Part shown: in pieces, positions 19,169-58,973 of the stretch
Layout: each line of letters begins with the position of its first letter
How positions within the stretch are numbered: position 1 is the first letter of the stretch
NCBI RefSeq assembly: GCF_008831285.2
Contig: NC_045141.1
Coordinates: 19,774,848-19,838,847 of the forward strand
From: Nymphaea colorata
Taxonomy: Eukaryota; Streptophyta; Magnoliopsida; Nymphaeales; Nymphaeaceae
Reading direction: 5' to 3'
DNA length: 64,000 nt
The notes under the pieces: model-generated
Database searches by the model: none
Told to the model about the DNA's origin: nothing
The model's input: only the letters and a program-made list of their open reading frames with translations
Made by a program: the position numbers and the translations under genes

Positions 19169-20655
19169 ATGGCGGATGATCGTGCTCGGGTGAGTTGTGC
19201 TTTCCTCTTTCTTATTTCTTTGGCGACGGGTTTCATTCATTTGCAAGAGTAGAAGACTCAAATTTTTGTACGAGTTTGTCTTATTGTCATTGTGGGGGTT
19301 TGGGTATTTCTGTTTCTCTTTCTCCTTTTCTCGTTTCTGCTTGAGTTGGAGTTTCAGTGCTACAATTTGGTGGCGTCGTAAGAAGTTCATTTTTTTCCCT
19401 TTTCGATGTCCTTTTGGTTTCTTTTTGTTGTTTTGGTTGCATGGCTTGGGTTTTCATCTCTGGAAAGCTGTTATTCTTCTCTTCTGGGGCTTTAGGGTTT
19501 TAGTGAATGTAAGGGTCTCCATTTTTGTCTTTTGCCTGGAAAATTTCGGAGTTCTAAGGTAGGGATTAAATTGTGAGATTTCGGATTGGATGATCTTTCG
19601 TTTTACTTTTATTAATTGGGTAATGGGATATTTGGAAATTTGGCTGGTTTCTTCTATCTTCAAAACCGAAGGTGATCTTGATTTTTGTCAATTGAATTAA
19701 ATATTTGGGTCGGTTCTGTCACCCGGAAGTTCTGCCTTGTTTCACACGAGTTCCTTGAGCATTCTGGGCTTTAAGTTGGCATGTGGCTTAAAAGGCTTTT
19801 TCCTTCTTCTTTTTTTTCCTCATGGCACCAGTTTTGGATTAGAAGCTGGCCACTTGTTCCTTGGTTCCCTGTTTCTTGCATTCTGGCCTGCAAAATGGAT
19901 CCAGTATAGTTTATTGGTATTGGCAAAAATCGAAGCCAGAGGTTGAGAAATTGGATTAGAATATCGGCATTCTACTGAATCCCCTTGTAAATTGATAAGG
20001 ATGAATTGGAAGTTTCAGATATATTTTGCCATTTCATCTTCTTTTAATTGTCAGACACGCGATTTTGCTAGGAATCTGTGTAAACATTTATGTTACCCTT
20101 GTTGCATGAAATGAATCTAGGAATTTAAACCAACTTGTCCTCTTGAGCTTTCATCTGAGCATTACTTTCTAATTGGATTTCAGTTTTCGTTAGGTTTGTC
20201 TTTTCATATTGATAATTCATAATTTAATTTCACCTATGTGATTAGTACAGGACAAATAACTTCCAATTCAGAAAATACTAGGAACTATAGATACCTTCCA
20301 TTACGTTCTTTGTGGTGTTAGGCAAGAATGTGCAACGCTCATCCTGTCATTTGGTTTCAAGTTCTAATAGTTGAGAGGTAGGAGCCCAGCCAGGTTCAAG
20401 GCTGAGGTCCCTATTAATGATACTGTAGAAAATAGAAAAGGGTATTGGAACAATAATGCTCTTCTCCATTGTTGTCAAGAAATTTATGAGTCCTTACACT
20501 TTCGTTTTCTTCTGATGGAATAACATTGTATCTGATTGTTTTCCATTTTACAGGTTGTGGTCCTTCTAGGACCTAAAATCTCTAATGGAAAGGGAAGGTT
20601 TATTTGTGCATTTCCTTCATCGGGGCTTGAAGTTGTATTATTGATGCAATGTTAA
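19169..20655 (+). promoter_or_regulatory. Likely spliced 5' leader of the ethylene receptor with an overlapping upstream ORF
   Basis: A strong donor (GTGAGT at 19190) and acceptor (TTTTACAG ending at 20553) fit a 1.36-kb 5'-UTR intron. If it is spliced, an upstream ATG at 19169 gives seven codons, continues from 20554, and ends at TAA 20653-20655. That is a 41-codon frame whose stop overlaps the receptor start codon (20649) in another frame. Such a uORF would be expected to lower translation of the receptor. The splice and the transcript start are inferred. Confidence 0.4.
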
Positions 20656-23600
20656 CGTTAGGGCAGGGTCTTGTAGTGATTTCTGTCCTTTTGTCTGTGT
20701 CTGTTGCCCATGGGGATTTTCCTCGTTGCAATTGTGATGATGATAGCCTCTGGGGCATAGAGAACATTTTGCAGTGCCAGAAAGTGAGTGATCTTCTCAT
20801 TGCCTTGGCATACTTTTCAATCCCCCTTGAGCTTTTGTACTTTATAAGCTGTGCCAATGTTTTTCCGTTCAAGTGGGTACTCGTTCAGTTTGGAGCATTT
20901 ATAGTTCTCTGTGGTTTGACACACTTATTGACAGTATGGACCTATGCCCCACACTCTTTCCATCTCATGCTAGCACTTACCATTTTCAAGTTGCTCACTG
21001 CTCTGGTGTCTTGTGCAACTGCTATTACCCTGGTTACCCTTATTCCTCAACTCTTAAGGGTGAAAGTTCGTGAGGTTTTTCTGAAGCAGAAAGCTCAGGA
21101 GCTTAACAGGGAGGTGGGGATGATGAAGAGACAGGAAGAAACTAGCTGGCATGTTCGGATGCTCACACAAGAAATTAGGAAGTCTCTTGATCGGCACACT
21201 ATTCTGCAGACCACCCTTGTTGAGCTCTCAAAGACGTTGCTACTTCAAAATTGTGCTGTTTGGATGCCAAATGCCCAGAAAACTGAAATGGTTTTGATGT
21301 ATGAGTTCAAAAATCGAAATTTAAAGCTCTCTGTTCCAATTGCTGACCCAGATATTATTGATATCTGGGCCACGAAGGAGGCAAAGATCTTGACATCAAA
21401 TTCATCACTGGGATCGGCAAGCAGTTGCGGTTCGACAGCTGAGAAGGGGGTTGCTGCCATTAGGATGCCAATGTTGAGAGTTTCAAACTTCAAAGGGGGG
21501 ACCCCTGAATTTGTTGAGGCTTGTTATGCTATTCTTGTTTTGGTTTTACCAGGTGAAACTTCACATGTTTGGAGTGACCAAGAGCTGGAGATTGTAGAGG
21601 TTGTCGCTGATCAAGTAGCTGTTGCTCTCTCTCATGCTGCTGTTTTGGAGGAATCTCAGTTGATGAGAGAGGAGCTGGAGGCACAAAATAGAGCACTACA
21701 ACTGGCAAGGAGAAATGCTATGATGGCCAGCCAAGCTAGGAACTCGTTTCAAAAGGTGATGAGTCATGGCATGAGGAGGCCTATGTATACCATCTCTGGC
21801 TTGCTATCAGTTATTCAGTTTGAGAATCTGGATTCCAATCAGAGGTTGATTGTCGATATGATGGCAAAAACTGGTAGTGTCCTCTCCAAGTTGATCAATG
21901 ATGTGATGGAGATTTCAACTGCTGATCATGGTGGGCTGTCTCTGGAGCTGCACTCATTTCCGCTGCATTCCATGATCAAGGAAGTGGCAGCATTGGCAAA
22001 GTGTCTTTGTTCTTGCAGAGGGTATGATTTTGAGTTTGGGGTTGGAAGCTCTGTGCCAGATCAGGTGATTGGTGATGAAAAACGGATTTTTCAGGTGATA
22101 TTGCATATGGTTGGAAACATGATAAGTTGTGGCCCTGAAGAGGGCTTGAGTTTAAGTTGTAGCCCTGGACAGGGCCTGATTTCATTCCGTGCTTATGTTG
22201 AAGATGATAATGAGGTGAGCCATACACAGAGGTGGTCACCATGGAAGCCAGAGCCACTCTCTAATGGCTATGTGTATGTGAAATTTGAGTTTAGAAATAA
22301 GAGCAACGTAAGCAATAAATCATCCTCTGGAACAAGTCAGTTGACAAGGAAGGTCAGCGGGGAAGGTTCACGGGAGGGACTTGGCTTCACAATGTGCAAA
22401 AAGCTTGTGCAGGTATGAATTGTGCATCGACAGCCCTTGCTTTTTTTTTCTTTTCTTTTCCAATGTGTCCATATCCTCTGTTGAAGCCCATCCAGTTTCT
22501 TGATAGGTCTTCTTAGTTTGATGTTTTAAAGTCCATCGGTTGTCGTAAACTTGAATTTGACATCAATTTCAAGCATTAGTGCAAGTTTTGCTGGATAATT
22601 TGAGATACACGAAGCTAAATTCAAAGAGCCTGTCAAAGTGATATTCCATGTATACCTGCACAGCCTTCTTTTAAAGTTCTTAACTATCGATAGTGCATGG
22701 GTGATCTATTCCTTTTAAATCTGTTTTTCTCAGACTATCCTGTCAGGTGTTATGTTCAACACAATGATGGTCACTCTCCTGCCAACCTTAAATCAACTCT
22801 CTCCAGGGCAAAGAGAGAGTGAACTGAACTGACCATGAGATAAGAAATAGCAATAATTTTTTATCTTTCCAGATCTTCTATTCTAATTTCTAAATATCTC
22901 TGTTATTCCGATGGATTCTCTTGAAGTATTTGCACGTTCAGTCTCATCTGACATATTATTGTAACAGCGACACTGAAGGCAGAACCCGTCGCACTAGACT
23001 TATGCCCTTGGATTTCGGTTTCTCCTTGCAGATTTCAAGTTGATGGCCTCTAACTTCACTATGTTGTTGTCCAATATTTCGAACAAAAATTTTCATTCAT
23101 ATCATTAACTTTTGGTTATCCGTCAATTCAGTTTTGGTGTTCACATTCAAGATTATGGCCTGGAACTTCTGTATCTTGTAGCCCAATGTTGCGGACAAAA
23201 AAATTTCATGTGTCATTGGCTTAGTTGTCTGTTCCTACATTTAACTGTTTGTGCTTGTGTATCATGCAGAGGATGCAGGGTAACATATGGGTAGTCTCAG
23301 GCAGAAGAGGCCCAGCCGAGAGCATGACTTTGCTGCTGAAGCTCCGTCCGCAGCAACCAATTCGGGTGCCCACTGAGCCAGGATCTTCTGAGCCCCTCAG
23401 TCGCTCAATCCTTAAAGGGCTAAATGTTCTGGTGGCCGACGGTGATAGTGCAAACCTTACGGCCACACGCAAGATATTAGAGAAATTGGGCTGCCGAGTC
23501 TCAGTTGTGGGTTCTGGTTTCGACTGTCTTAATGCTCTTGCCTGTCTCAGCGACCCTTGGGACCCCATTCGTGTGGTGATCTTAGACATTTACATGGCTG

Positions 23601-23809
23601 GAATGGATGGTTGTGAGGTTGCTCACAGGATCCGGAAATCCAGTGGCCTGTGGCCGCTGATCGTCGCATTGACTGCAAGCACAGACGACGATATACAGGA
23701 GAAGTGTCTGCAGGTTGGGATAAACGGGGTTATAAGAAAACCAGTCTTGTTGGAAGCCATGGCTGACGAGCTCACCAGAATTATCCATCAGGGGGGTCCG
23801 GTTGTTTGA
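20649..23809 (+). CDS. EIN4-like: Subfamily II ethylene receptor (EIN4/ETR2-like)
   Basis: Exons 20649-22412 and 23270-23809 give 767 aa. Seen: an N-terminal hydrophobic extension (about 1-22) typical of subfamily II, the disulfide-type pair C27/C29, and a three-helix ethylene-binding domain (about 47-135) with copper-ligand residues C88 and H92 in VLCGLTHLL. A GAF domain (about 182-331) and a short coiled segment follow. The kinase-like region keeps the H-box His (H373 in VMSHGMRRPM) and a GLGF glycine motif near 580. A receiver domain (about 638-760) has phosphoacceptor D694 and K745. Family knowledge: these receptors sit in the ER membrane and, without ethylene, activate the CTR1 kinase to repress EIN2 signalling. 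Kinase activity of subfamily II is degenerate or Ser/Thr-type. Length equals the family norm. Both junctions are in phase 0. Retained His and receiver Asp favour EIN4-like over ETR2-like, but a tree is needed. Confidence 0.95.
22413..23269 (+). other. Intron of the ethylene receptor gene
   Basis: 857-nt intron between the kinase-like and receiver coding exons, with a GTATGA donor and a TATCATGCAG acceptor. It has the same position as the conserved intron that precedes the MQGNIW motif in this family. No other feature is seen in it. Confidence 0.85.
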
Positions 23810-28141: not shown

Positions 28142-30629
28142 ATGGCGAACTCTATCGCTGCCTTTCTTACCACCCTCTGCGGGCTCTTTGCCCTTGTCTT
28201 TCTCCGGCCTGCCAGTGCCGCCTACGTCATTACTAGTTATGGTGCTAAGCCCGATGGCGTGAGCGACAGCAGCGGTGCTTTCCTCAAGGCCTGGAATGCG
28301 GCGTGTAACTCCGCCGGACCTTCAACTGTTTATGTGCCGGTTGGAAGGTTCCTCTTGCTGCCGGTGGAGTTCTCTGGCCCTTGTAGGAGCCGTAGTATCA
28401 CCGTGAGGATCGATGGCACCCTGGTGGCGTCGGGGGATTACTGGCGGCACAGTGTGGCTGGGCACTGGCTACTGTTTGATAGTGTTGAAGGTGTAACGAT
28501 TGAAGGAGGGACTCTGGATGGCCGGGGATCTGCCTTGTGGGCCTGCAAGGCTGCTGCCGGAAACTGCCCTGATGGAGCTACGGTGACTTTCTCTCTCTTT
28601 CTCTTTTTTGCATTCTGCTCATGGTCGCGTGACTTTGTTTGTTCTTCTCCATGCAGTCTCTCTACTTTAACAATGCAAAGGACGTTGCAGTAAAAGGCCT
28701 CGCGTCCATCAACAGCGAGCTCTTCCATATTGTGTTCCTTGGCTGCGTGGGAGTGAACGTAGAGAGAGTGGCTATCTCGGCCGCCGGCGACAGCCCCAAT
28801 ACGGACGGCATACATGTGGAACGATCGTCCAGGGTTTCCATTACAAACACGAGAATACAAACCGGCGACGACTGCATATCGATCGGTCCGGGTGCACAAA
28901 ACCTATGGATCGAGCAGGTCTCATGTGGCCCAGGACATGGCATAAGGTATCCCCAATTTCATAAAACCTCTTAAACCATGCATCACATTCGTGCATGAAT
29001 TTTTTTTATGTGGTGGTATGATTAATGACTAAAATACCTTTAGCTTAATTATTTGTAAAGATAAAACTGAAAATAAAAAAAATAAAAAGAATCATAGAAA
29101 ATATTTCTTTTTAATAAATTATCAAAATGTCCTTTCATTTTTTATGCACACTGTGTGTCCGACACATGTAACTTTCTCTCCTATAATCCAAGATTCTAAC
29201 ATGGTCCTTCACTAGCTGAAATTATGAAAACACCGTTAAGAAAGAGTTGCAAGAAAGGCCTCCACATAAGGATAAAATAGGAACATGAGTTTGTTTTCCT
29301 ATTTTACCCTCCGTGGAGGGACATAGTATGTTCGGTCCTCAAGCCAATATATCCTTTTATATCCCGAACCATACCCTCCTCTCTGTTCGGCCCTCAAGAC
29401 ATGCACAGCCCCCGAACATGTTCGAAGATGAGCATACAAATTGGAGTACATGCAACGAAAGTTTGATCTACTTAGCCTTAAGTGGTTGGACTTAAAAAGA
29501 CGAGTACACGATCTAAAAAAGGTCAAAAGTTTGATAGATGAAACAAATTTTCTTCATAAGTTGGTCGGAATCATGGCATCACTTAATTATCAGAGATCTG
29601 CCTAACTCACCTTCCCTAAGACTTGTCTTGTCTACCGTTCTCTCCTCGTATATTTTGTATGCGTATATTTTGTATATCATGATGCATTCGTAGGTCTTGC
29701 TTTTCATTGTCATACATGAAAACCTCTACCCACACAAGTCAAAATCGATTATAATTAGAGATTATTTGGCAATATTGTACAATTAATTTGTCTCAAAATT
29801 AGAACAGATTCATAAAACAATATACAAACCTGATTTAATTTTTAGACCTGCTTTAATTTTTAGAGCAGATTCAGTGGACATGTCCTTGCCAAACAGCCTC
29901 TTCCACAACTGAAAAAGAGCTTTCAAGTTGTACAAAATGTAATCAGGCAGTCCTCAAACCATGTAACGAAAATATAAGTTTGCCTTTCCTGAAATTTTTT
30001 GGGGTGATTAAATTATTTTCTTCCACAATTGCAGCATTGGAAGTCTGGGCAAGGACGCTACAGAGGACGGGGTTCAGAATATCACGGTGAAAAATACTGT
30101 ATTCAGAGGGAGTCAGAATGGCCTGAGAATCAAAACATGGGCGAGGAAGAGCACCGGCTTCGTTCGAGGCGTCGTCTTTCAGACTGCCACCATGCAGAAT
30201 GTGATAAACCCCATTATAATCGACCAGAACTACTGCCCCCACTACAAGAACTGCCCAAATCAGGTATTAATGATCTGGCTTTCTGCTTCTTCCAGGAAAT
30301 AGAAGCGGCAGCCGTGGAACTGCCAGTAATGAACGTTGTTCCTGTATATTAATGGTCGTGCCTGGCCAATAGGTTTAATCTTCTTCTGAATCTTCGTTTC
30401 CTTGATGTAGCACTCTGGCGTGAGGATATCGGGAGTGACATACAGCAACATCAAGGGCAGTTCGGCGACGCCGGTCGCCGTCAAGTTCGCCTGCAGTCCG
30501 GCTGCACCATGCAAGGCGATCAGGTTGGCGGATGTTAAGTTGATGTACCAGCAACAACCGACAAAATCATCTTGCCAGAACGTCGTGGGGACTGCTAGCG
30601 GTCTGGTGGTTCCACCAAGCTGCTTTTGA
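28142..30629 (+). CDS. Polygalacturonase (GH28, exo-type), four exons
   Basis: Exons 28142-28582, 28657-28946, 30035-30263 and 30411-30629 give 392 aa. Seen: a signal peptide (about 1-26, ending in ASA), YVITSYGAKPDGVSDSSGAF at the mature N-terminus, and a beta-helix body with the four GH28 signatures: SPNTDG (D197), GDDC (D218, D219), CGPGHGIS (H241) and RIKTW (R275, K277). All catalytic residues are present. Family knowledge: these secreted enzymes hydrolyse homogalacturonan in the pectic cell wall, often in pollen or separating tissue. Length and the CPDGATSLYFNN join fit the clade of exopolygalacturonase-like genes. Intron 2 (28947-30034) holds a MITE-like insertion. The 3' end and flank recur at about 36020-36215 as part of a duplicated block. 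Confidence 0.95.
29755..29905. repeat. MITE-like element in polygalacturonase intron 2
   Basis: The stretch is bounded by ATTATTTGGCAA and the inverse-type TTGCCAAACAGCC, with AT-rich contents. Similar GGTTGTTTGGTAA ... CAAACGGCC ends bound a segment at about 58117-58292. These look like short non-autonomous elements of one loose group. Confidence 0.35.
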
Positions 30630-31388
30630 GTAGAGATATTAGCTTGAGGGGCTGGCTTAACTCAGTGGGTACTGTTTAAGTTAAAGATTGGTCCTGTATC
30701 ATATTAGAGCCCGGTAGGCATGGATACAGCCCTGGGCTCACCCGCTGGGTTAGTTCTCCCTGGTTTTATAGCTCTAGACAACTACATACCACATATACAC
30801 ACATACATTTGTAACCAAACTTTAGGGAATATAAATATATGAAATTTATTATTACATAGTGTGTATGTGAGAGGGAGTCTCTGCTTCCTTTTTCAAGTTG
30901 GTAAAATTTATCTTTCTTCAAATCCAATTTGTGAATAACTCGTATTAATGACAACGTGCTCGTCTTAATGACAACATATAATTAAAGCAATCTACTAATT
31001 GTTTTTGTTTTGAAGATCGTCTTGGTGAAGAATGAATTTCTCGGTCAGGACTCACCGTTATGCACGACGTCTTAAAAAAGTTTTTAAAATTGAATAGCAA
31101 AATGAGATTTTATGTTCGTAAAGAAAAAATTCTACGACGATGTGTAATAAGTTGCCGGCGGACGACAAGTAAGTCGTCTGGGTAGGAGGGGGCAGAAGGA
31201 AACGTGGGCAGTGGATTTGGCGCTAGCGCTTCTTCTTTCCGGCCCTCCCTCGTTCCAAAAGGAAAGAGAAAAGAACAGAGGACCACGGACCACCGACTCG
31301 CTCCGACGGTGGAGGCCTTCTTGCCTCCATTTTCCGAGCACCGCCACTACCCTTTTCCGGCTGGACCGTCTTTCTCTCTCACACACAC
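30630..31388 (+). repeat. Duplicated block, copy 1: polygalacturonase 3' flank to DOHH promoter
   Basis: This stretch has counterparts at about 36068-36633 in the same order: TTTGTAACCAAACTT, GGAATATAAATAT, GACAAGTAAGTCGTCT, GAGGACCAC, CACCGACTCGCTCCGACGGT and CTTTTCCGGCT. It therefore carries a copy of the DOHH promoter and leader. No independent gene is seen. Confidence 0.75.
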
Positions 31389-31690
31389 ATGGTAATGGAA
31401 TTGGAGGCCTCTGGAAGTGGATCCCATGCGGCACCCGAGACAGGGGTTCCTCGGCGAGAAGCTGATCGATCAGGGCCAGCCGATCTCGGAGGGGTAGAGA
31501 GCCAGCCGATCCGGGACGCCTTCATTCCATCCACCTGCCTGGATCTTTTTCTGTCCCCCTTCTGTTTTTGTACGTTGGTTTCTTCTTATCTGCTTCTTTC
31601 GTTCGTTTGTTTGTCAATCTGCTTCTGTGGAGGCTTCTGCGATCTTCTCACAATTACGGCTCATTTGAGTTTGTTGAAGGGCACTTTCCA
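31389..31690 (+). pseudogene. DOHH exon-1 pseudogene with part of intron 1
   Basis: ATGGTAATGGAATTGGAGGC begins a copy of DOHH exon 1: GCCTCTGGAAGTGG and GCGGCACCCGAGAC match 36634 onward. The frame is lost after the Glu-Thr codons by a small deletion, and the block coding for [13 protein letters not shown] is missing. Similarity then continues into the start of DOHH intron 1 and stops at the edge of the large inverted repeat at 31692. None of exons 2-7 is present nearby, so this is a truncated gene copy. Confidence 0.8.
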
Positions 31691-35756: not shown

Positions 35757-36068
35757 TGGATCGCTAGTGATTATGGTGCTAAGCGCAAGCGACAACAGCA
35801 GAGCTTGCCTCAAGGCCTGGATTAATGTAGCATCTAACTCGGTCAGACCTTCAACTCTGTACTCTGGTAAGTTACTCTTGCAGGGATTTGAGTTCTCTGG
35901 CCCTTGTACAAACTGCTATTGAGTTTTATGGAGTTCTCTGGCCCTTGTACAAACTGAGTTTTATGGCATTAGCGGAGTCAGAAATTTTTTCAAGTTGATG
36001 TACCACATTTGCGCGGTTTGGTGGGGCGACTTCTAGCGGTTTGGTGGTTCCACCAAGCTGCTTTTGAG
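35757..36068 (+). pseudogene. Polygalacturonase pseudogene (exon 1 joined to exon 4)
   Basis: The first part matches exon 1 of the intact gene: TTATGGTGCTAAG, CTCAAGGCCTGGA, CCTTCAACT, GAGTTCTCTGGCCCTTGTA. A stop codon and frameshifts break it. The sequence then jumps to the end of exon 4 (AAGTTGATGTACCA, then AGCGGTTTGGTGGTTCCACC and AAGCTGCTTTTGAG). Exons 2-3 and both their introns are gone. A piece of about 37 bp around AGTTCTCTGGCCCTTGTACA is tandemly doubled. The junction contains AGCGGAGTCAGAAATTTTTT, which resembles a family H end, so an element may have taken part in the deletion. This is the upstream partner of the DOHH gene in the duplicated block. Confidence 0.85.
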
Positions 36069-36633
36069 TCAGGTTATGGCCTCGGTTAACTTTCTCCGGG
36101 TTCATAACTCGATCTACACAACTATTACATGATATATACACATGTATTTGTAACCAAACTTCAGTGAATATAAATATGACATTTAGTCTTACATGCATGT
36201 ATATGAGAGGGGGAAATAATATCATTTACTCGTTCAAGTATGTCAAGTTTACTTCCTTCAAATTAAAACTGTAAAAGAATAACTAAAGTATCGGTTGACC
36301 ACTTGACCAAGTTTTTTTAATTAAGCTGAAACTAAATGAATGTCATATTGAAGAAAATTTTGTTTTCGCGACGGTGTGTTTCCAGCCGACAAGTAAGTCG
36401 TCTAGAAAATGGTAGAAGTGGGCGGAAGCGAGCGTACGTGGCTGTTTGTAGCAGTTGACGTTAGCGGTGGTTTTCGCGCTGGCGCCTTCCCACTCCCTTC
36501 CCTTCAAAAGCAAGGAGGAATGGACAGAGGACCACCGACTCGCTCCGACGGTGGAGACCTTCTTGCCTTCGTTTGCTGAGCACCGAGATTACGCTTTTCC
36601 GGCTAGACCATCGCCCCGCTCTCTCTTGTGGCA
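36069..36633 (+). promoter_or_regulatory. Promoter and leader of DOHH copy 2 (duplicated block, copy 2)
   Basis: This is the counterpart of 30630-31388. It probably holds the core promoter and 5' leader of the DOHH gene that starts at 36634. The CACCGACTCGCTCCGACGGT segment is shared by both copies. Confidence 0.5.
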
Positions 36634-39600
36634 ATGGAGGCGTCTGGAAGTGGACTCCAGGCGGCACCCGAGACGGAGAAGTTCCTGTGCGAGAAGCTGC
36701 TCGATCAGAGCCAGCCGATCGCGGAGAGGTACAGAGCTCTCTTCGCTCTCCGGAACCTCAGCGGCCCCGCCGTCCGCGATGCGCTCATTCAAGGTTGTCT
36801 CTGTACCCACACTGCCTCGCTCTCTTCCTGTCCCCTGAATTTTCTGTTTTAGTTCGTGGGTGTCTTTTATCTTTCTCTTTTGCTTCGGATCGTTCTTTTG
36901 TTGGAGGCTATAACTTAACATGTGGTACTCTATGTCTGCGTCTTTTCTCTTCTTTCACCAAGGGCATTATATTTGTATAATGTGGATATCTATGTGAAGA
37001 TTGATATATAGAACTTTCTTTCTTTGGTTTTTTGTAAATTTGGAATTATTCGGAGTCAGAGTTATTTGAAATCTTTCAATTCATTAACTTTTTTGTAGTT
37101 GGTGATATTGAAGTTTGTGATGAAACTTTTAAGTTCTTTCATGTTGGCAGCTATGAGGGACTCATCAAACCTTTTAGCCCACGAATCAGCATTTGCATTA
37201 GGTCAGATGCAAGATGTTGAAGCTGTTCCGGCTCTAGAGAGGATTCTTCAAGATCTTTCTCTTCATTCTATCGTCCGCCAAGCGGTACCATTCTACCAAT
37301 GCTAGTTCTGAACTTGTCTAAGATGGATTCGCTCATAAAATACATGCATGGTTCATTGGTTTTTCGGCTTCATTACAAGGAAAATGAGTTGGCTTCTTGG
37401 ATTACTTGGTGTTGCAGGCAGCTGAATCTCTTGGGGTGATTGGTTTGGAAAGAAGTGTTCCAATTTTGAAAAGAAGCTTGGATTCAGACCCTGCAGAGGA
37501 AGTTCGTGGAACGTGTGAACTTGCTCTACGACGTATGGAAGAAAAAGCAAGCAGGGGACAAGTCTCTGAGGCACCTTCAGGAGTTCCATCTCCATTTCTC
37601 TCAGTTGATCCTGCTCTACCAGCGAGTGATGTATCTTCAATAGCACAGCTCAGGTATCGCAAAAATGGGAAAGATTCCATTCCCTCATGCATATCTTTGC
37701 TTCAGTTTGCTGATAATGCTTCTGTTCTTTCGTACTTCAGAAAGGTTCTTTTGGATGAGAATGAAAGCTTGTACAAGCGCTGCGCTGCTCTGTTTGCTCT
37801 TCGAGATCATGGAGGGAAAGAAGCTGTTAATGCTATTATTGCTTCTTTGGGTGCTGCAAGTCCTCTTTTACGTCATGAGGTCAGCCTAAGCATACGTGTG
37901 CCTAAGCATTCTTCATGTTAAAATCTGTCGTGCAGATTAAGGACCAGGCATGGTCCTTGTGTAGCGGATAATGTAATTGCAGTTAATTTTTTACTACAGA
38001 AATGTTTATCTGCTGCTTACTTTTTATTCTTTAAAACATTTTTATTCCGAAAGATGGTCGCTGCTTAATTGTCTTTTATTGAAAGTTTGTTGATTGGCTT
38101 CCATGTTCAGACGTTCTGTGTGTCACTGTATGATTTGTAGGGGTCTGTTTTTCTTTTGATGGTAGTTTGTTTTTGATGTCCGCAAAAATATGAAGTTCTA
38201 AAGGCACGCCTGAGGATTTGGCTGTAATAAAGAAGCAGCCAAGTTTTACCTAAAACTTTTCATGGTTGAAAAGGTACTGAAGCTTCCTCTTTATGGTTGT
38301 TGGTGAAAGTTTATGCGTAGAGAAGTTTATTTTAAGGAAAATCAATGAAAGGTAAGGCAAAGTTTCATTCTCAAACTGATGTCATTTTTCGTTCTAAAGA
38401 ATCATACTTTTATTCTGTTGAAGCCGTCGTATTATTTATAGTACATTTACATTTCTTTGTTAGCAAATTCTTCTTTCATCATATCTGCCATTCATTGAAA
38501 ACAGGTTGATTGGATCTAGATTTGACTTCGAGATTATGAGGAGCTGGAACAACGCTAGCAAATATTTCCTGTTTCTGCTTTTTATTTGGAAACAGTGTCA
38601 TGGGATCTGACGGTAGCCCATAGTTGTAATCTGTAGTCTTAATTCCATTTGGCAGGTAGCCTATGTGCTAGGGCAACTGCAAGATAAAGCTGCTTCTGCT
38701 GCACTTTCAGCAATACTTAAAGATATCAATGAGCACTTAATGGTCAGGCACGAAGCTGCTGAAGCTCTTGGCTCCATTGCAGGTAAGTTTTTGAGACCAG
38801 TATTGTGCATAAGCTTGTCTTTTTTCCCTGGAACACTTTGCGAGATCTCATGTTAGTTGAAATGTAAAAGTAAACTATTAAAAGTCTGAGATGTAGATGA
38901 CAACCAAGCCTTGTTAGATAGAGTCTGAACTTTTCAAAAGCCAAGTCAGTAAACCTTTGACAAGAGGTTTTGTGGAAATTACTGGATGGTTTAATACCCT
39001 CTTATACAATAGTAGTGAACTTTAGTGACCTCAAGATTGGTATTTGTTCCATCTGATTCTTCAACATGTCCACTTGAAGATGTAGACTATGAAAGAGAAT
39101 ATATATGTGTTCTTCTCATTTTGTCTGAATGAGCTGAGATACGGCAGCAAACTCAGAGGAATGCCGATGGGCATTTTCATGGGCAGGTTGTCCATTGTCT
39201 CTATTGGAGGATTAGTGTGTGAAAATCCCAAACTTTGTGTTTATGAATTGCCTCTGAAATGGTTAATGCTATGGCTTCATTGCCAACATGGTGAATTTTC
39301 TCATCATCCTAAAGGCGTTACATGAAACATCTGCTGAGCGATTAGTATACCTGTTTGTGGAGACAAAAAGTCTCACAGGCAACAGCTTACTATTTTTCTT
39401 TTGATGTTTGTTCATATGATTGAGCTGCAGATCAAGCAAGTGCTGCCCTTCTTAAGGAATTCACAAGGGATGTCGAGCCCATTGTTTCTCAGAGTTGTGA
39501 AGTAGCACTTAGCATGCTGGAGTTTGAAAGATGCGGCAAGTCGTTTGAGGTATCGTAGACTTGTAGATCAATGAAAACTGATTCTTCTAAAAATCTTTGG

Positions 39601-39670
39601 GAAAATTACTTCTAAGCTCGTTCTTTTGTTTTTTCAGTTCTTGTACATGCAGACACCGCAAGTGATGTAA
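36634..39670 (+). CDS. Deoxyhypusine hydroxylase paralogue lacking the second His-Glu pair
   Basis: Exons 36634-36793, 37151-37284, 37418-37653, 37741-37879, 38656-38782, 39431-39549 and 39638-39670 give 315 aa. It is a HEAT-repeat protein with the DOHH layout of two four-helix-pair halves and a variable linker (about 144-176). Family knowledge: DOHH hydroxylates the deoxyhypusine residue of eIF5A in the cytosol with a di-iron centre held by four His-Glu pairs. Seen here: H64-E65 (LLAHE), H222-E223 (LLRHE) and H255-E256 (MVRHE) are intact. The pair expected at 97-98 reads Gln-Ala (IVRQA), where the sister gene has HE. Two base changes in adjacent codons cause this; splicing and frame are intact. 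EEVRETC is also EEVRGTC. Intron 3 (87 nt) is stop-free and in frame. Catalysis is doubtful; a structural or regulatory role, or early decay, is possible. Confidence 0.9.
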
Positions 39671-41186: not shown

Positions 41187-42926
41187 ATGGCGCCTAAGCG
41201 TGAATTCCAGGTGCCGCCTGAGATGGAGAGGTTCCTGTGCGACAAACTTGTCGATCCAAGCCAACCGATAGCCGAGAGATTCAGGGCACTCTTCTCACTC
41301 CGAAATCTCAGTGGGTCATCAGTTCGAGATGCCCTCATTCTAGGTCCCGGTTCTCTCTTCCCTTTTCGCAGATTTAGTGCAGCAATTTTTTTCGTGCTTC
41401 TTTTATGATTCCGATAAGACTGTTTGATATTTCTCCGCATTTTGTCGAGGTCTTGTGGTTCTTCTTTCCTCAAATTGGAGAAACTGAAGCTCATCGCGTT
41501 GCCGGTCGTTTGTATATGATGATTTAGTGAATCTTGTGTCAAAGGCCATGATCGTTGCTTATGAAGATCAGTGCCTTTTGCTTTATACACGCGGGTTTTC
41601 GTAACAAAAGTTTAGCTGTTCATATCTCGGTTTCTAATAGTATTGATCGTTGTGGGCAGTTTTTTTTATCTTCCGCTTGCTTTCCATGCGCAGTTAACCT
41701 ATTCGACTGCCAACCCTGGAAAGCCTAGCGCTATGTGAGTTGCAATTTATCAATTTTCACTAGCTATCCTGGCTGAAGGATGCGTTTTCTGCGTAGGCTG
41801 CTATTTTTTCATTGTGCAAGAAAAATGATAGAATTTTGTTCTGATTTTTGCATTGGTTATATTTAGTATGGAGAAGATACCTGGCAGCATCATTGAAGCA
41901 CGTGCCACCGTTCACATGTTGCACAGTAACTGTAACTTCTCCCAGTAAAGAGTTGCATATGTGGTTAGACTGTTAAGCTGTCTTATCTCAATTTGGTTTT
42001 ATTGTATAGCTCAATACCATTTTGTCTTGCTCTTTTCTCTTTTTCAATAAATTGGTAATGGACCAATTTGATCAGGTGATGGCTGAATTTACCTCTTGCA
42101 TCGTTTCAAGGATTAGTTGTTCCCTCGATTAAAGAGGGCAACAACATCGGTGCCATGAATGATAGCTTAAAAGGACATGTAAATGGAATTTATGGTTCAT
42201 CTTTGGACGTATTTGCGGCTATGTATAGCTGATGAAGAAGTTGGGAGAAGCTTCCACTGGAAAAACCTTTGAACGCTCTGTGTCCTCTTGAGGCATTTTG
42301 CCATGACAGTTGTGTGCACAGAGTCATGACCAACGGTTTCTCCTCATGTGAAATGGTCTAATTTTATAGCAGAGGTGATAGTTCAGCTTTGCAAGTGGGT
42401 TTTTGATATGTGATCTATGTTATCAAAGGTCCTAGAAGAATCTGGGTGCTAGACCCCATAAAAGGCCTAATCAGATCCCAGGTGGCACCTATTCAGAGCC
42501 TAGGTGGACTTATTCAACAGAAAAAAAGGGGAAAAAAAAGTACAAATGGGGGCTTTTCAGAAAACTTTGCCTCAATCAATATTCTAGAAGATAGAACAAA
42601 CAAAAAAGGAATGGAATTTTTATGGTTAGAAATTAGAAAAAAAAATATATTTTTTTAGGACTCCCTAGGTGCTCGCCTAGGCATTTAGGTTACCATCCAG
42701 TGCTTGGGGGCAGCCTAGGCACTCTTTTATTTGCAAAGATTTTTGCATCTTAGTTTCACGTCCTTAAGTGTAACCACCTAATGCAAAAGGGCTTCCCTTT
42801 GTAACTCATATTTAATTTTTTGCATCAGTGTCAATATGCCATGCTAATTCCTGAAAAGGACAAACTTTTCCAACATCCGAAAGAGCTAATATATTAGCCC
42901 ATTGTGCTAAGCTTTTGCAGTGGAAG

Positions 42927-42974
<48 letters not shown>

Positions 42975-45774
42975 ATATGTGTGTGACTGGGTTCCCATTT
43001 CTCATACATTGGGGGAATGGGTGGGACTAGTCAGCATTTTTACTGGACAGACCAGTCACAAGCATTTCTTCTTTTTTATTATTTTCCCCCATTTTCTTGT
43101 AAAATTCTCCATGTGCATTTGATCTTGACAGTCAAAAGGTTGCAAATCCATATAAACCTGGAAATATTTTAGGTGTGTAACTAATATTTTATAAATGTTT
43201 AGTAATCAATAGTCATTTTTTTCTTTTTTGCTTATAGAACCCACACTTTATTTCCAAAAGGTAACAATTTTTATTTCGATTTTCATATTTTGAGACATGA
43301 AAAAACATCTAGATATTTTTTTTTAATGTAATAAAATGTGATTGGACATATTTGAGCAACTGTTTTCTTGTGGAAATATGCACTCAAATAGGTTATACTA
43401 TCTCTAGATATGTGCACTTTTTGCGCTGGGGAACATTATATTAATATATGCACTTTCATATCATCTCTCTAAGTATGTGCATTTTCTTCATTGAGGAATC
43501 TAGCACTATCATGTGCTTTCCATATAATATCTCTACTCTACATTGAGTAAAACTATCACTTTCAGATCTACCATATCATATGAAAGGAACTGTCTTGTTT
43601 CTCTCTTTCTCTCTCTTCTTTTATTCTGCACCAGGCAAGTTCTCTATCTGGCAATGTTTTTACAAGGAAATGATGATTTTTTTTGGATTCTATATGCTGG
43701 CAGCGATGAGAGATTCATCAAATCTTCTTGCCCATGAGTCTGCATTTGCATTAGGTCAGATACAGGATGTGGAAGCAGTCCCAGCTTTGGAGAAGGTTCT
43801 CAATGATCTTTCTGTTCACCCTATTGTCCGCCATGAGGTACCCTTTCTTCAATGTGTTGTTGAGTTTGTGTTTTTCCTATTTTGTATATTTGGATTAATG
43901 GACATATATTCAGCTGTATGCTTTCACTTGGCTTTTTCCCCTGTTGGATAATTTTGTGGTGCAGGCAGCTGAAGCACTTGGTGCAATTGGTTTAGTAAGC
44001 ACCATTCCAATTTTGAGAAGAAGTTTAGTTTCTGATCCTGCAGAGGAAGTTCGTGAAACATGTGAACTTGCTCTCAGACGAATAGAAGTGCAAACGAGCA
44101 TAGATAACGGTTCTGAGACATCTTCAGAAGTTGAATCACCATTTCTGTCAGTTGATCCTGCCTTGCCGATGTCTCAAAATTTTTCTGTAGTCCAACTGAG
44201 GTATTGCCTTATGAAATGCTCACATTCTCTTTCTTGGTGAATGCTTTTCCTTGTGTTTGTTATTAATTTTGGGGTGTAACATCTCAGAGAAGTCATTTTA
44301 AATGAAAAAGAAGGCATATATGAACGCTATGCTGCTCTGTTTGCCCTTAGAAATCATGGAGGGGAAGAAGCCATTTGTGCTATTATTGCCTCTTTGGGTG
44401 CTAGAAGTGCTCTTCTGCGGCATGAGGTTGGTCTTAGAAAACTTGTATCATCTTTTGGTCTGAAAACAGTTTTGGTAGAACAGGGAAATTTGGTGCTCTT
44501 CTATAGCAGATAACTTGATAACACAATTAAAGTTAAAGAATCTTTTATTTGTAATATGATTTGCTTGGTATATTTTATATGTCTATAATCTATATTTACT
44601 TGATAGATGTCCTGCCATGAGATCATGAGTAAATATGTTATGTTATCAGAATCTCCTTTCTATTCATAAGGTCTTTGTACTTTAGGTTTCATTGGGTTCT
44701 TAACCTCAATTGATTGCCAGGTGGCATATGTGCTGGGGCAACTACAAGACAAAGCTGCTTCTATTGCACTGTCAGAGGTACTTAAAAACATCAAAGAGCA
44801 TCCAATGGTCAGGCATGAAGCTGCTGAAGCTCTTGGCTCTATTGCAGGTATGCTTTGAAGTTTGAACTACCAGTACTTCTTGTGCTGCGATCCTTGAATC
44901 TGTTTTTTTCTTCTTTTGCCTGTTTAATATGGGGACACATGGACGATTCTGTCAACTGATAGTCTGAAACTGAAAGTGTCAAATGTTTCACTCAGGAACC
45001 TTTTGCTGGTTTAACTGTTTAAGGACACTTGGTGTGGGTCAGTTAGTTGGAAAGGCCATTTGGGCCGACATCTAAACATTCGAGATCAAGAAGACTTTTG
45101 TTGAGAAGGTTTAGGAAATCAGTGTTGCTAATAGCCAAACATATCAACCAGGCTGATACGCATTTGATTGATGGTACGTATGATTTTCTTGGTTTTGGAT
45201 ACAAGATGGAGACTGAGTTTACAACATTGGTGTGGATGATATCCTTGGCTAAGTTTTACAACAAACCCAAACGCTGTGCACTGAGCTTTTAGATAATGCT
45301 TATGATGTCCAAATAGTAACAACAGGAAGTTGTTGGTCCTTCAGGTATTTGGAAAATATGGATTTCATGAACTTAAAAGTATCTCCAGCTTATCCTTATT
45401 GCCTTTGGACATAGAACTTTTATCTGGAGGTAGGACCAGACAGGGACAAGACTTTTTCTGCGTTATAGATTTCTTCTCAAATAAATAGTATCATATTTCC
45501 AGCTGAGAATGTTTAACATGTCTTCGTGATTGAAGTGTAGATCATGATAGTGTTGCACTTCTTGAGGAATTCACAAGAGATCCTGAACCTATTGTTTCCC
45601 AGAGTTGTGAAGTTGCACTCAGCATGCTAGACTTTGAAAGATGTGGCAAGCCATTTGAGGTAAAGTATCGTAGATTATAATTGAGATCCGATGAATTCTG
45701 AAATCTTGAAAAACCAATTTCTAATTATACTTTTCTTCCAGTTTTTTTACATGCAGGCACCAGAAGTGGCATAG
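41187..45774 (+). CDS. DOHH: Deoxyhypusine hydroxylase, complete active-site set
   Basis: Exons 41187-41343, 43704-43837, 43965-44200, 44288-44426, 44721-44847, 45541-45659 and 45742-45774 give 314 aa, with the same seven-exon plan and phases as the upstream copy. All four metal-binding pairs are present: LLAHE (H63-E64), IVRHE (H96-E97), LLRHE (H221-E222) and MVRHE (H254-E255). The 33-residue spacing within each pair of motifs equals that of characterised DOHH. It should carry out the last step of hypusine formation on eIF5A. Its first intron (2.36 kb) is much longer than that of its neighbour (0.36 kb) and holds repeat DNA. Its third intron is also 87 nt but contains an in-frame stop. Being intact, it is the better candidate for the housekeeping enzyme. 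Confidence 0.95.
42418..42730. repeat. CCTAGG-rich repeat relic in DOHH intron 1
   Basis: Variants of GCCTAGG, CCTAGGTG and CTCGCCTAGGC recur, with an A-rich centre and a TTTTTTAGGACTCCC step. This is a common kind of degenerate plant repeat with no coding capacity. Confidence 0.4.
42929..42970. repeat. (CT)21 microsatellite in DOHH intron 1
   Basis: An uninterrupted CT run inside the first intron of the intact DOHH gene. Confidence 0.95.
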
Positions 45775-48899: not shown

Positions 48900-49015
48900 G
48901 AAAGGCACACGCATAAATTTTTAGTGCATGAAAAGTATAAAATGTAGGAAAGATAACTGATCTCTTATCAGCAGTTCTACACCTCTTGATTATCCAGTAG
49001 CTTCCGAGAAAACAG

Positions 49016-49060
49016 GAGGGAGGACGGGAAGAGGAGGCGGGGGCGGGGGCGGGAAGGAGC
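49016..49060 (+). promoter_or_regulatory. G-run cluster (potential quadruplex) upstream of the unit A gene
   Basis: GGGAGGACGGGAAG is followed by two GGCGGGGGC-type runs, giving at least five G-tracts of three or more. A shorter version sits at the matching place in unit B (about 57819-57860). It lies about 1.1 kb before the start codon. Confidence 0.4.
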
Positions 49061-49618
49061 TTCTAATTCAATTTCTTTCATTTCTCCGAAGGAGTTGCGA
49101 CAAACGTCCTTCCATTTTTCCTCTACATCTTTCGCAAAACCCTTCTTCACTCTTCGTATCATCGTATGGGAATAAATTGTGTGAATTATTCCAGTTGGGG
49201 GGCCAAAGTTTTCAGTATAATTCTAAAACCATCGATGCTCAGCTTTTGCCCTCTGTCCTTTGCTATCATGGCTCCTTACACTTTTGTTTCGGTAAAAATC
49301 GCACAGGCTTTTCAAGTTAAATGTGAGACAGAAGAAACAAATAATAAAATTTCAGATGTTCCTAAAGTGACGGACTTTCAACTGGGATTTTTCCTTGACG
49401 ATTATCAGTAAACTGAGAAGCTTGTTTGTTAGCTATAACAAGGAAGCTCGTTTCTGGAAGTGTGACAGAAGATGAGGTGTTAAATGAATCTTCCCCTAAA
49501 CGTACCGGTAAGTGAAGGAAAACAAGCAAAGCCACCAAAGCGCAGCGAAAGGCCTTTTCCGTCGTTTCTGTTTCCGTCCCCCATTTCCTCCCTCCCCCGC
49601 CTAATCAAGGGCACCGCC

Positions 49619-49657
49619 TCTCTCTCTCTCTCTCTCTCTCTCGCTCTCTCTCTCTCT
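49619..49657. repeat. (TC)n microsatellite in the unit A leader/promoter
   Basis: A TC run with one CG interruption, about 470 bp before the unit A start codon. The same site in unit B has only a few units (GCGCCTCTCCGGGAG at about 58514). Confidence 0.85.
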
Positions 49658-50122
49658 GTGGGAGCTTCAGATTACATCTATTCCCTTTTTCTGGTATTGT
49701 CCGTGCTCGATCTCTTTGCCCCTTTCTTTTCATAAGTCCATTCGCAGTTTCTACGGTTTCCCCTCCTCGAATTTAGTTGATTTTCTGTAAATCTAGCTGC
49801 TGGGCAGCATTTATTTTGAGGAAAAGGAGGGGTTATGGTAAAATTTGCGTTCCTGATTCTTTTTAGTGATGAAAAGTTTCAATCTCAACGAGCTTTTGGA
49901 GCTTCCGAATGTTGGTGGTGCTTTTCTTGATTTCTTTTTCATCTTTTTCCTGTTGGTGGCGGGCTTGCCCCCAAAATCTCTCTCTCTCTCCAGCCTTTCA
50001 TTCTTGATATGATTTTGCTGTTTCTGGTTTCCTATTCCAATCAATCCCTGCTGTCTCTCTTTTACAGATTATGTTTTCTTCAGTGTGATTACTGGAGGCG
50101 AGGTTTGTATATATGTTGTCTT

Positions 50123-53100
50123 ATGGCCCGTAAAAAGCGGCTCCTGCAAATGACATCTTCCAGCGCCATAGCTCCCGTCACAGAGCCCCGCGACCAGGGC
50201 AGAGTTACTAGGTCACGATCCCGCGCCAATGCTGCAGATGTGCATACCGAGCCATGCTCTTTGCCCGACATCTTCAAACCTAGGAAGAAGGGTCGTGGGG
50301 GGGCAGTCGTTGCTGCTTCGCCATCCCCAAGTGCGAAAGGAACTGAGGAAGGTAAGAAATAGAAGGTCATTTAAGAAATTAAAATGTTGCTGCACCCAAG
50401 TTCGTTCCGGGGTCACTGGTACGCAGAACTCATGCTGTAACTGCTATTTCCCTGTCAGATGGTGAGCAGTCTTGTGGTCCAACTGAGGAAGAAGCTGGTG
50501 GTGATGACGATAATGGTGCTATTGTGGTGGCGGATGATCCTAGCGATCGCGATGTTGTTGTGATGGCGGATGATCATGGCGACTATAATGTTACGAGCAA
50601 CACCACCTGTGATGGCAATAACAGTAACCCTTGTGGGGGCAAGGATAATGTCGGAACTTCCTTGACCGGTCCCGGCGCCTCACAAGAATCTTTAGAAACG
50701 ATTCAAACGGTAACGCCTTGGTTTCTTCTCTGTCTAGCATCGGAGCGAATAGGCACTTAGTGGCATTTTGATGCTCTGGACCATGTCAATGAATAAAAAT
50801 GCAACGCAAAATATGATTATTTTCTTTATCTGCATTTACGTCTGCCGTGAACTGTTCAGTTTGGGTTCTAATGATAGGCGAATCACCTCTATTATTAGAC
50901 CTGGGCCCCTGGAGTCCAGCTAGATGGAGTACTGCTGACCGCCTACAAAAGAAACCCACCTCCTATGGTTTTTCTGCCGCAGTGCTTCATTGTTGAGTGA
51001 GATAAACAAGTGTTTTCTGGTCATTGCTTCCAATTGCTGGCTACTGCAAGGATCATGCCAACGAGGGACTGTCTACCCTCTTCAATCCACCCTTTGCTTT
51101 CTATTTTTACCGCCATCAACGTGTCTTTATCATTTTGCTTGAATGATTTGAACAAAGATCGAAAGAAATGGTCAGTGTTTTTTATTACTACACGCTTTGA
51201 TTGGCAAATAGTGCTTATTCTTAGGTTCTTGTTCTTTGATCACACAAATATAAGGTGAATGACGTTAATATCTTAAAATGCTTGGAATGAAGGTGTTGGT
51301 TCATCATTTGTTGGTTCATTCTCGATAGCAGACTATAGTTTTCTGATTCGGCTCTGCTTTATCTTCATTGGAAGTCCTTGTTCATGGTTGTTTCGGTTGT
51401 TTGCTATTTGTGGTATTGCTTATAAGTTATAACCTAAAAGCTGAAGCTATGTGTTAAAATAGGCAGTCTAACAAAGCTCAGCTAGACAGTACGACTGAAA
51501 AATAAATTGTGTTTCGTGTACTTCTCCTCTGTTTTTATTTCTTTTCTTTTTTTCTTAATCATCTACTTCTTGCCTATTGGATCTTCCTCCTGCACTCTTT
51601 GTAGGCATCATTCTCAAGATTATTAGTTAGAAGACATGTTTTTTCCTCATCTTTTATTACATCTTGTAATTGAATTAAGGGCCTGTCACTGTAACTTATA
51701 AATTCAATTACCATTAGCCAAAGCTCTTCTCACATGCCAACTTCTCATGTGTTCTTTCTCTGTAACCATAGGTAGTTAATCATGAAGGATGTGTATGACA
51801 AAAAGTGTGCCTCCTTGGTCATCTTAGATTTGTGCTACTTTATTGAGTTGTAGATACGGGAGGATAATTCTTGCTTTACTAAAAAGGAGGAGGGGATGAT
51901 GTAAGAATAATTTTCATTTCTTTACTCTTTCTTGCTTGCTATTTCATCCAATGATACTACATGAAGACTTGAACATGTAAATGATTTTACATGGTCAGAT
52001 TTCCTTTATTTATTAAAAAATTTTTAGACTTTGAACCCAACAGTTGAGTTTCACAATATTGACACTCAATTGGCTAAGCGGTTATTTTAAGAAGCTGAAA
52101 ATGTCTGCTTAGAGCAACAAACAATTAGAATGATGAATAAACTTTTTTTGACAAAATGTTCTTACTATTTTTAGCTGTCATTGAGGGTGAGTATAATATT
52201 CATATTTTCTAGCTTCCCATGGTAAAATCAAGATCAAGAGAAGGTTTCCGAATCGTGTTTTTTTTTTATTGTAACAAGAGTGGATGTTCTTCTTAATTGT
52301 CTTTCCTATTTCATTTTTTGTCTGAAAATATGAAAGTCTTCGTCTTTCTTTTAATAATATATCAATTTACTATTATTAGCGAACTTTATGGGTTATGTTT
52401 GTGCACTTACCAAAAGCAGTCATCATTGGATATTTTGCCCTGAGAATTGTATTCACGCCTAATCGCCCATAGAAATGTGATTTGAGTAAGTTGATTGACT
52501 AGGAGCCATTTCATATTTTTGAAACAAGAGAATGGCTTTTGAGCCCTTCCATTAACCTACTTCTGCCATGTACTCTGATGAATCATTAACAGTTAAGTTG
52601 TGTCTGTCTTCTCCATTCATACACAGTGGGCAGTCTGAGCTCCAACGTTTAAGGCATGGTTTCCAAATTAGACAGAACAGGTGTTTCAGGAGTGGTTTTT
52701 TTCAGATATCAACTGTTGTTTGGTGTTAAATATACAAAAGGAAAGCACGTGAATTTAAAAAAGAGAAGATTTTTGGTGATTGATTTTCATTTCTGCCAAT
52801 GTTGTAAAAAGCGTATCGTAAGGCGTATCGGTCGGGCTTTAAGATACGCCGTATCGTAACGTATCGTAACGTATCGTAACCGTATCGTAAATTTTTAAAA
52901 AATAATAATAATAAATCAGAAAAAATTTAAAAAAAAATCAAAAAATTCATAAAAAATCAGAAAAAATTAAAAATAATAAATTCTTCATAGAAAACATGGT
53001 TTAGTCTTTTAGATAATGATAGACTTATTATTTTGCTAAATGCTATAAACTTACACGTTCACGGTTCATCATTCATACTTCATAGACATCAAAATTCATA

Positions 53101-56932: not shown

Positions 56933-58116
56933 TTGCTACTTGCTATGATGATGATGCAAATGTAGCTAACTCTGTAACCCGACCCGTGTAGGCCCATGGT
57001 CATGTTGTAGTACGGTAGTACCCCTTATGGATGATCTATACTTTGTTACATACCGCTTTGGTTGGATGACGATCCCTTGGTTCTTGTTCGTTTTCATCTT
57101 TACCTAAAGTTGGATTAGCAGATGCAACAGATGACCGATCATTTGGTTGTATGCTTCTGGTTTCCGAAAGGCATCGTATTACTGCTGAGTTATGGAAATG
57201 GCGTCTACGCTTGTGCTTGTCTGATCCTTGTATGTTAGTATATTTGTTAGATCAATCTTCCTCTTCTAGTCATGCTTCTTCCATTTCCTTCACTAGTCTG
57301 TGTAAACAAGACCTGCTACTTGCATGAAACAAAACTATTTTCCCGTCGTTTCCAGTAGAGATGCTACTTGCATTTGTTCCGACATTCATCGGCAGTGATC
57401 CCATAACCAGAACCAACCAGCCATTTTTGGTTCAGCAAATTGGTGAGACGTTGATTCAAATATCGGATTCCTGCATGTGGTTGCCGTTGATCTTCCCGGT
57501 GATAGCATGAATTAAATATGGCATCCAATTGTTGGAACTTTCCTATTCATCTGTCCGTGTTCTATCTGGATGGATCTGATGGTCTGCATGACTTCGCCAT
57601 GCAACTCTGCAGTGGGAGTGGAGTCCTTCCAAGGCTGATTAGCTTGGAGTGTGATTTAAGTTCTGCTCGTGGATTTAGACATCCGATGTGTTGTACAACG
57701 AGTGGCACACGCATAAATTATTGGTGCATGAAAATTATAAAATGTAGAAATGATAGCTAATCTCTATCAACAGTTCTATAACTCTGATTTATCAAATAGA
57801 TTCCGCAAGAACAAGAGGGAGGACGGGAAGAGGGAGGCGGGGGCGGGAAGGAGCTTCTAATTTCAATTTCATTTCATTTCTCCGAGGAGTTTCATCTTCT
57901 TCTACATCTTTGGACAAATCCTTCCTGCCTCTTCGTGTGAGAATAAATTTAAGATATATTCCATTTGGGAAGCCAAAGTTTTGAGTATAATTTCAAAACC
58001 ATCGTCACTCATCTAGTCAGCTGTCGGTATCTGTGCTTTCGTATCGTGACTCCTTTTACCAGACTAAAGAGTTAGTTGCACAATAAACTAAAGAGTAAGG
58101 GAAGAAAAACTCTTGG

Positions 58117-58292
58117 GGTTGTTTGGTAAACGGAATATTTCATGAATGTTTCATGCGTTTGTTCTAAAAATTATGTAAATTTATGGACATACAATTTTAG
58201 TATTTTATGAATATGCTCCAATCCTCTATTTATTTAAAGTAGATTCATTAAAGTGACACTTATAAAGTATTTCAAACGTCAAACGGCCCTTT
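58117..58292. repeat. MITE-like element private to unit B
   Basis: Bounded by GGGGTTGTTTGGTAAACGG and CGTCAAACGGCCCTTT, with an AT-rich core containing ATGAATGTTTCATG. The matching part of unit A (about 49400-49450) has no such stretch. The ends resemble those of the segment at 29755-29905. Confidence 0.4.
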
Positions 58293-58973
58293 AAAATACA
58301 TAGGTTCAGGCCCAAACAAATGTCAGTAAAGGTTGATTTCTTACAAAGAAGCTCGTTTTCGGAATTACGACAAAAGATGAGGACTTAAATGAATCTTTCT
58401 TTAAAACGTACGGGTAACTGAAGGAAATGAAGCCGAAGTCACCAAAGCGCAGCGAAAACCCTTTTCCGTCGTTTCTGCCCCCGTTTCCTCCCTCCCCCGC
58501 CTAACCAAAGCCAGCGCCTCTCCGGGAGCTGCAGATTACATATATATTTCTTTTATCTGGTATCGTATGTGATCGATCTCTTTCCCCCTTCCTTTTTCAC
58601 AAGCCCCCTCGTGGTTTCTACGCTTTCCTCTCCTTCTTCTGTAAATCTAGCTGCTGGGCAGCATTTATTTAGAGGAAAAGAAGTGGTTATGGTAAAATTT
58701 ACGTTCCTGATTCTTTTTGGTGATGAAAAGTTTCAATGTTAATGTGCGTTTGGAGCTTCTGAATGTTGGTGGTGTTTTTCTTGATTTCTTTTTTATCTTT
58801 TTCGTGTTGGTGACGGGTTTGCTCCCAAATCTCTCTCTCGCTCCGCCTTTCATTCTCCACATGATTTGCTGTTTCTCCTTTCCTATTCCAAATCAATCCT
58901 GCTATATTTCTTTTACAGATTATGTTTTCTTCCGTGTGATTACTGAAGGCGACGTTTGTGTATAGGCAGTCTT

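Follow-up and report, generated by a model that had tools for sequence, protein, structure and literature searches.

Gene A of Nymphaea colorata, a homologue of deoxyhypusine hydroxylase (DOHH), carries Gln97-Ala98 in place of the second of the four His-Glu pairs of the family, and is probably (at roughly 0.58 by our estimate) a DOHH pseudo-enzyme that was kept for its scaffold. The gene lies in a window of 64,000 nucleotides, the whole stretch of DNA analysed here (C4:19774848-19838847), within a genome of 407,766,735 bases in 783 contigs; positions given without a contig are those of the window.

In a hand-made splice model, gene A occupied 36634..39670 of the plus strand with seven exons (36634-36793, 37151-37284, 37418-37653, 37741-37879, 38656-38782, 39431-39549 and 39638-39670), which encode 315 residues in 948 coding bases including the stop. 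All six introns were of the GT-AG type, and neither internal stops nor frameshifts were found, so that the open frame and the splice sites show none of the disruption expected of a pseudogene. When the protein was compared by phmmer with human DOHH (PDB 4d4z), residues 18-304 of the 315 were aligned at an E value of 1.3e-66, and Pfam detected both HEAT_2 and HEAT_PBS above their cut-offs (PF13646, 109.1 bits against 27.7; PF03130, 90.5 bits against 20.9). The near full-length homology and the HEAT repeats identify the putative product of gene A as a DOHH by descent.

The loss of the pair is real. Exon 2 of gene A ends in CGC CAA GCG before the GT donor (gtacca), as the original prediction had stated, whereas that of the tandem neighbour, gene B, ends in CGC CAT GAG (followed by gtaccc); both endings were confirmed in the sequence and in the splice models, and exon 3 of A starts at 37418 after ...ttgcag. 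The codons CAA GCG (37279..37284, plus strand) are separated from a pair-bearing sequence by two separate base substitutions, CAT to CAA and GAG to GCG. In alignments with B, with a third gene (D) and with human DOHH, Gln97-Ala98 fell on the second pair, the VRHE of the human protein (4d4z chain). By our own count, the pairs of that chain are at 61, 94, 212 and 245, which give 56, 89, 207 and 240 in the numbering of PMC9117371 after subtraction of a constant 5, and the site in A corresponds to human His89-Glu90 (chain residues 94-95). The splice model also bore out the rest of that description, with frame, seven exons and the remaining three pairs intact: the first pair (64-65) is encoded at 37180..37185, the third (222-223) at 37874..37879, at the end of exon 4, and the fourth (255-256) at 38749..38754, all on the plus strand. 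Thus, three of the four pairs that characterize DOHH as an enzyme are present in A, which is also unchanged where it aligns with human Glu57, Glu208 and Glu241 and at the glycine of each LGQ motif.

The three plus-strand frames of 36634-39670 contain four HE dipeptides, three of them being the pairs of A. The fourth, in an intronic LHETSA at 39321, was the only one outside the exons of A and was rejected as a source of the missing pair, being unrelated to it. As no other usable HE was found in these frames, no alternative exon on the plus strand of gene A restores the pair. By U1 pairing, the donor that follows CAA GCG was weak, ranking 16 among the 18 donors of the three genes, and the exon 1 donors of A and of B paired more weakly still.

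The roles of these residues were taken from the review PMC9117371, in which the di-iron centre of human DOHH is described as anchored by His56, His89, Glu90, His207, His240 and Glu241, all six of which matter according to alanine substitutions, and the deoxyhypusine side chain as bound by four glutamates, Glu90 included, and two glycines (the review prints G65 for the glycine that our numbering places at 63). The four pairs are called strictly conserved in this review, and the four motifs are called conserved across all the eukaryotic homologues examined in PMC3306375. By alignment with these assignments, two of the six iron anchors are changed in gene A, each of them in the N-terminal half, together with one of the four substrate glutamates; that is, an enzyme homologue has lost residues essential for catalysis, as pseudo-enzymes do. 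Because the anchors were defined by mutagenesis and the same pair provides a deoxyhypusine-binding glutamate (PMC9117371), loss of hydroxylase activity in gene A is strongly expected, and both the di-iron centre and the hydroxylation of eIF5A(deoxyhypusine) are predicted to be absent. The earlier claim that every His-Glu pair serves the di-iron centre holds for both residues of the second pair, but in the account of the review only six of the eight residues are reported as anchors (PMC9117371).

Gene B begins about 1.5 kb downstream of A and has the same seven-exon structure. According to its splice model and phmmer, it extends over 41187..45774 of the plus strand (exons 41187-41343, 43704-43837, 43965-44200, 44288-44426, 44721-44847, 45541-45659 and 45742-45774) and encodes a DOHH of 314 residues that matches the human protein at an E value of 1.9e-73, with four His-Glu pairs at 63, 96, 221 and 254. 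Of 314 residues aligned between A and B, 231 were identical. Another DOHH gene, D, modelled from two stretches of C12, is unlinked (C12:1787252-1819787) and also consists of seven exons, encoding 310 residues with four pairs; its exon 2 ends in CATGAG, its protein reads VRHE at the site lost in A, and 220 of 309 residues were identical between A and D. Intron 4 of gene D was about 29.6 kb long (L015 and L017, C12:1788900-1818494), whereas the corresponding introns of A and B measured 776 and 294 bases. Since all four pairs are present in D, two normal copies of DOHH, B and D, remain in this genome.

A search of the genome with the B protein returned at least 20 scored matches, six each in A, B and D plus two to exon 1 on C10 and C2, all these counts being lower bounds. 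The corresponding DNA search gave four matches, namely A itself, B, a fragment C and D, none of which represents a second haplotype of A. Fragment C (30587..31599, plus strand), detected by blastn as four pieces with 73-93% identity to 36025-36880, is a copy of the upstream region of A, some of its exon 1 and the beginning of intron 1. Its decay is seen in exon 1, where a stop interrupts the frame and the alignment has a 2-base gap, and its surroundings gave no significant match to later DOHH exons. Sequence from around exon 1 of gene B also occurred as two dispersed fragments, L018:3614-4010 on C10 and L019:4454-4849 on the minus strand of C2, each of about 400 bases and 78-80% identical to B, one of them with an in-frame stop and the other with a two-residue gap. 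Such recurrent dispersal of first exons may reflect transposon capture. The DOHH complement of this genome therefore comprises two four-pair genes, one three-pair gene and decayed fragments. One scan of viral contigs for relatives, carried out with the single protein B, yielded one pattern match and none that was confirmed.

Elsewhere in the window, a second local duplication was seen between 49002-52795 and 57801-62310 (six pieces, 74-82% identity). The window also contains an ethylene receptor gene (20649-22418 and 23225-23809), with ETR1_N, GAF and HisKA followed by a response regulator receiver domain in the next ORF, and the first part of a polygalacturonase-like gene (28142-28693, Glyco_hydro_28).

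The protein tree does not settle whether A and B are sisters. Among the 203 codons that specify the same amino acid in all three genes, a silent codon choice was shared by B and D alone at 39, by A and B at 33 and by A and D at 24. As neither the tree nor the codons settle the relation of the three genes, the branch of A may predate the tandem arrangement. Between B and D, dS was 0.74-0.97, depending on the method, which falls within the range of a KS peak of about 0.9 tied to a whole-genome duplication (PMC7015852); an origin of gene D in that duplication is a guess.

Pairwise values between A and B were 0.15-0.17 for dN and 0.63-0.77 for dS. Selection on gene A was analysed with the GY94 codon model and F3x4 frequencies, using our own script on 309 codons of A, B and D. 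A single omega for the three genes was 0.186, and a separate omega for A, 0.255 against 0.152 in the other two genes, did not improve the fit significantly (p 0.10). In contrast, an omega of 1 for A was rejected (2dlnL 18.9, p 1.4e-5), its likelihood profile giving a 95% range of about 0.16-0.42 that was nearly unchanged without the two changed codons. The dN/dS check suggested in the original prediction, in which neutral evolution would appear as an omega of about 1, thus found no neutrality for the branch of A as a whole. When neutral decay was simulated, 6.25% of the runs were free of stops at 0.1 substitutions per site and 1.6% at 0.15, and the dS of A's branch was 0.44-0.53, against 0.24-0.31 for that of B, in models with free or shared omega. 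Taken together, the simulated stops, the dS of the branch and the rejection of omega=1 argue against free drift over most of the branch of A, which was for the greater part shaped by purifying selection. A plain pseudogene over the whole branch was rejected, as it disagrees with both the omega test and the stop simulations.

This constraint is measured over the whole branch of A, in which selection before and after the loss of the pair is inseparable in these data. With or without the two changed codons, the likelihood profile allowed a neutral share of the branch from zero to about 0.30, with the best fit at 0.05-0.10 and zero fitting nearly as well (2dlnL 1.14), so there is room in the branch for recent decay. 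Over the 275 gap-free columns in the alignment of A, B and D with human DOHH, lone departures from the residue common to the other three numbered 15 in A, compared to only 3 in B and 8 in D (A against B, p 0.0075). Such a number is what weakened constraint gives, although part of the excess accompanies the longer silent-site branch of A. Five of the changes in A fell within 13 residues near the lost pair (p 0.029), but only three when the pair itself was left out (p 0.69); therefore, as the other changes are not clustered near the site, they do not demonstrate a local remodelling independent of the loss. For the stretch 85-106, a Fisher test (p 0.0023) was discarded, because the stretch had been chosen after viewing the data.

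The room for recent decay bears on a rival explanation that we consider tentative and clearly less probable than preservation for the scaffold, namely that A worked as a DOHH for most of its life, lost the pair recently and now drifts under the shield of B and D, its low omega being a memory of the earlier working period. The excess of changes at conserved sites would fit such a course, as would the best neutral share, the weak donor after CAA GCG and the presence in the same genome of decayed pieces of both genes, A and B. Nevertheless, A is free of stops, frameshifts and broken splice dinucleotides, a neutral share of zero describes the branch nearly as well, and neutrality over the branch as a whole is rejected. 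The original prediction had named both possibilities, and each was borne out in part: dN/dS favours the preservation of a pseudo-enzyme over most of the branch, although the data also leave room for a late loss, and a recent loss agrees with a neutral share of up to about 30%, but the shield is double, with D on another contig in addition to the neighbour B.

It is improbable that A has retained activity, either with one metal in the C-terminal half or with other ligands, and carries out a slow or different oxidation. In favour of such an activity, A retains the first pair (64) as well as those at 222 and 255, but all six anchors matter by alanine substitution in human DOHH (PMC9117371), and the sequence of A gives no hint of substitute ligands. 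Even more improbable is a base error in the assembly that conceals a true CATGAG. It would have to comprise two separate substitutions with the length unchanged, and the errors left uncorrected in long reads are predominantly insertions or deletions, which counts against it. Since 83 of 314 residues differ between A and B, mixing with the reads of B would favour CATGAG at this place, and not the reverse. The N. colorata genome was assembled from PacBio RSII reads, with Illumina reads used for polishing (PMC7015852).

If gene A is a DOHH-derived pseudo-enzyme, as we prefer, family knowledge predicts that its product, devoid of two N-terminal iron anchors, would neither hold the di-iron centre nor hydroxylate deoxyhypusine, and the C-terminal half, with the pairs at 222 and 255, would hold at most one metal ion. 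What remained would be a scaffold without the metal centre but with the fold and a large part of the inner surface preserved, which could have been retained for its HEAT-repeat surface, with hydroxylation supplied by genes B and D. Less firmly, this surface may possibly bind eIF5A(deoxyhypusine), as guessed from family knowledge and from the conservation of the other pairs and of the LGQ glycines. That A has long acted as a regulatory pseudo-enzyme, which would bind eIF5A(deoxyhypusine) without completing the reaction and so set the level of full hypusination, seems unlikely to us.

The bilin lyase family protein NblB and the artificial alphaRep are metal-free HEAT/PBS proteins of the same fold family as A, and alphaRep repeats vary at the places of the residues changed in A. 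Among A, B and D, only in A did the best stretch against NblB span the changed repeat (residues 69-144), which appears to fit the ordinary metal-free HEAT pattern. The NblB scores of all three were far below the family cut-off, with A at 50.8 bits against 300, and A is instead a homologue of DOHH along its length.

Compared to human DOHH (PDB 4d4z, 4d50), gene A is alike in the homology of residues 18-304, the HEAT repeats, three of the four His-Glu pairs and the LGQ glycines, and differs in having no equivalents of His89 and Glu90. Genes B and D have the seven-exon structure in common with A, but carry all four pairs and depart less often from conserved residues. Human DOHH is a monomer. In trypanosomatids, DHS is activated about 3000-fold by a catalytically dead paralogue, DHSp (PMC3663545), which, like A, is found beside a working enzyme of the hypusine pathway, the deadness of A being predicted. 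However, DHSp belongs to DHS, a tetramer, and activates its partner, whereas A belongs to DOHH. For the DHS step of hypusine formation, a dead enzyme copy is already on record (PMC3663545). Among the matches listed in literature searches for DOHH pseudoenzymes and for plant or Arabidopsis paralogues, no DOHH pseudo-enzyme was named in titles or abstract openings, although an earlier description is possible, and deoxyhypusine hydroxylase in Nymphaea gave no literature match.

In the case of a late loss, gene A would represent the ordinary decay of a redundant duplicate. If the regulatory role were true, A would be a plant counterpart, one pathway step later, of the dead DHS subunit of trypanosomatids. 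DOHH has been described with a single substrate (PMC8309165), and a copy truly preserved without one of its pairs would mean that the scaffold can serve beyond hydroxylation; such a gene would also offer a natural variant for asking what the binding of eIF5A alone may do.
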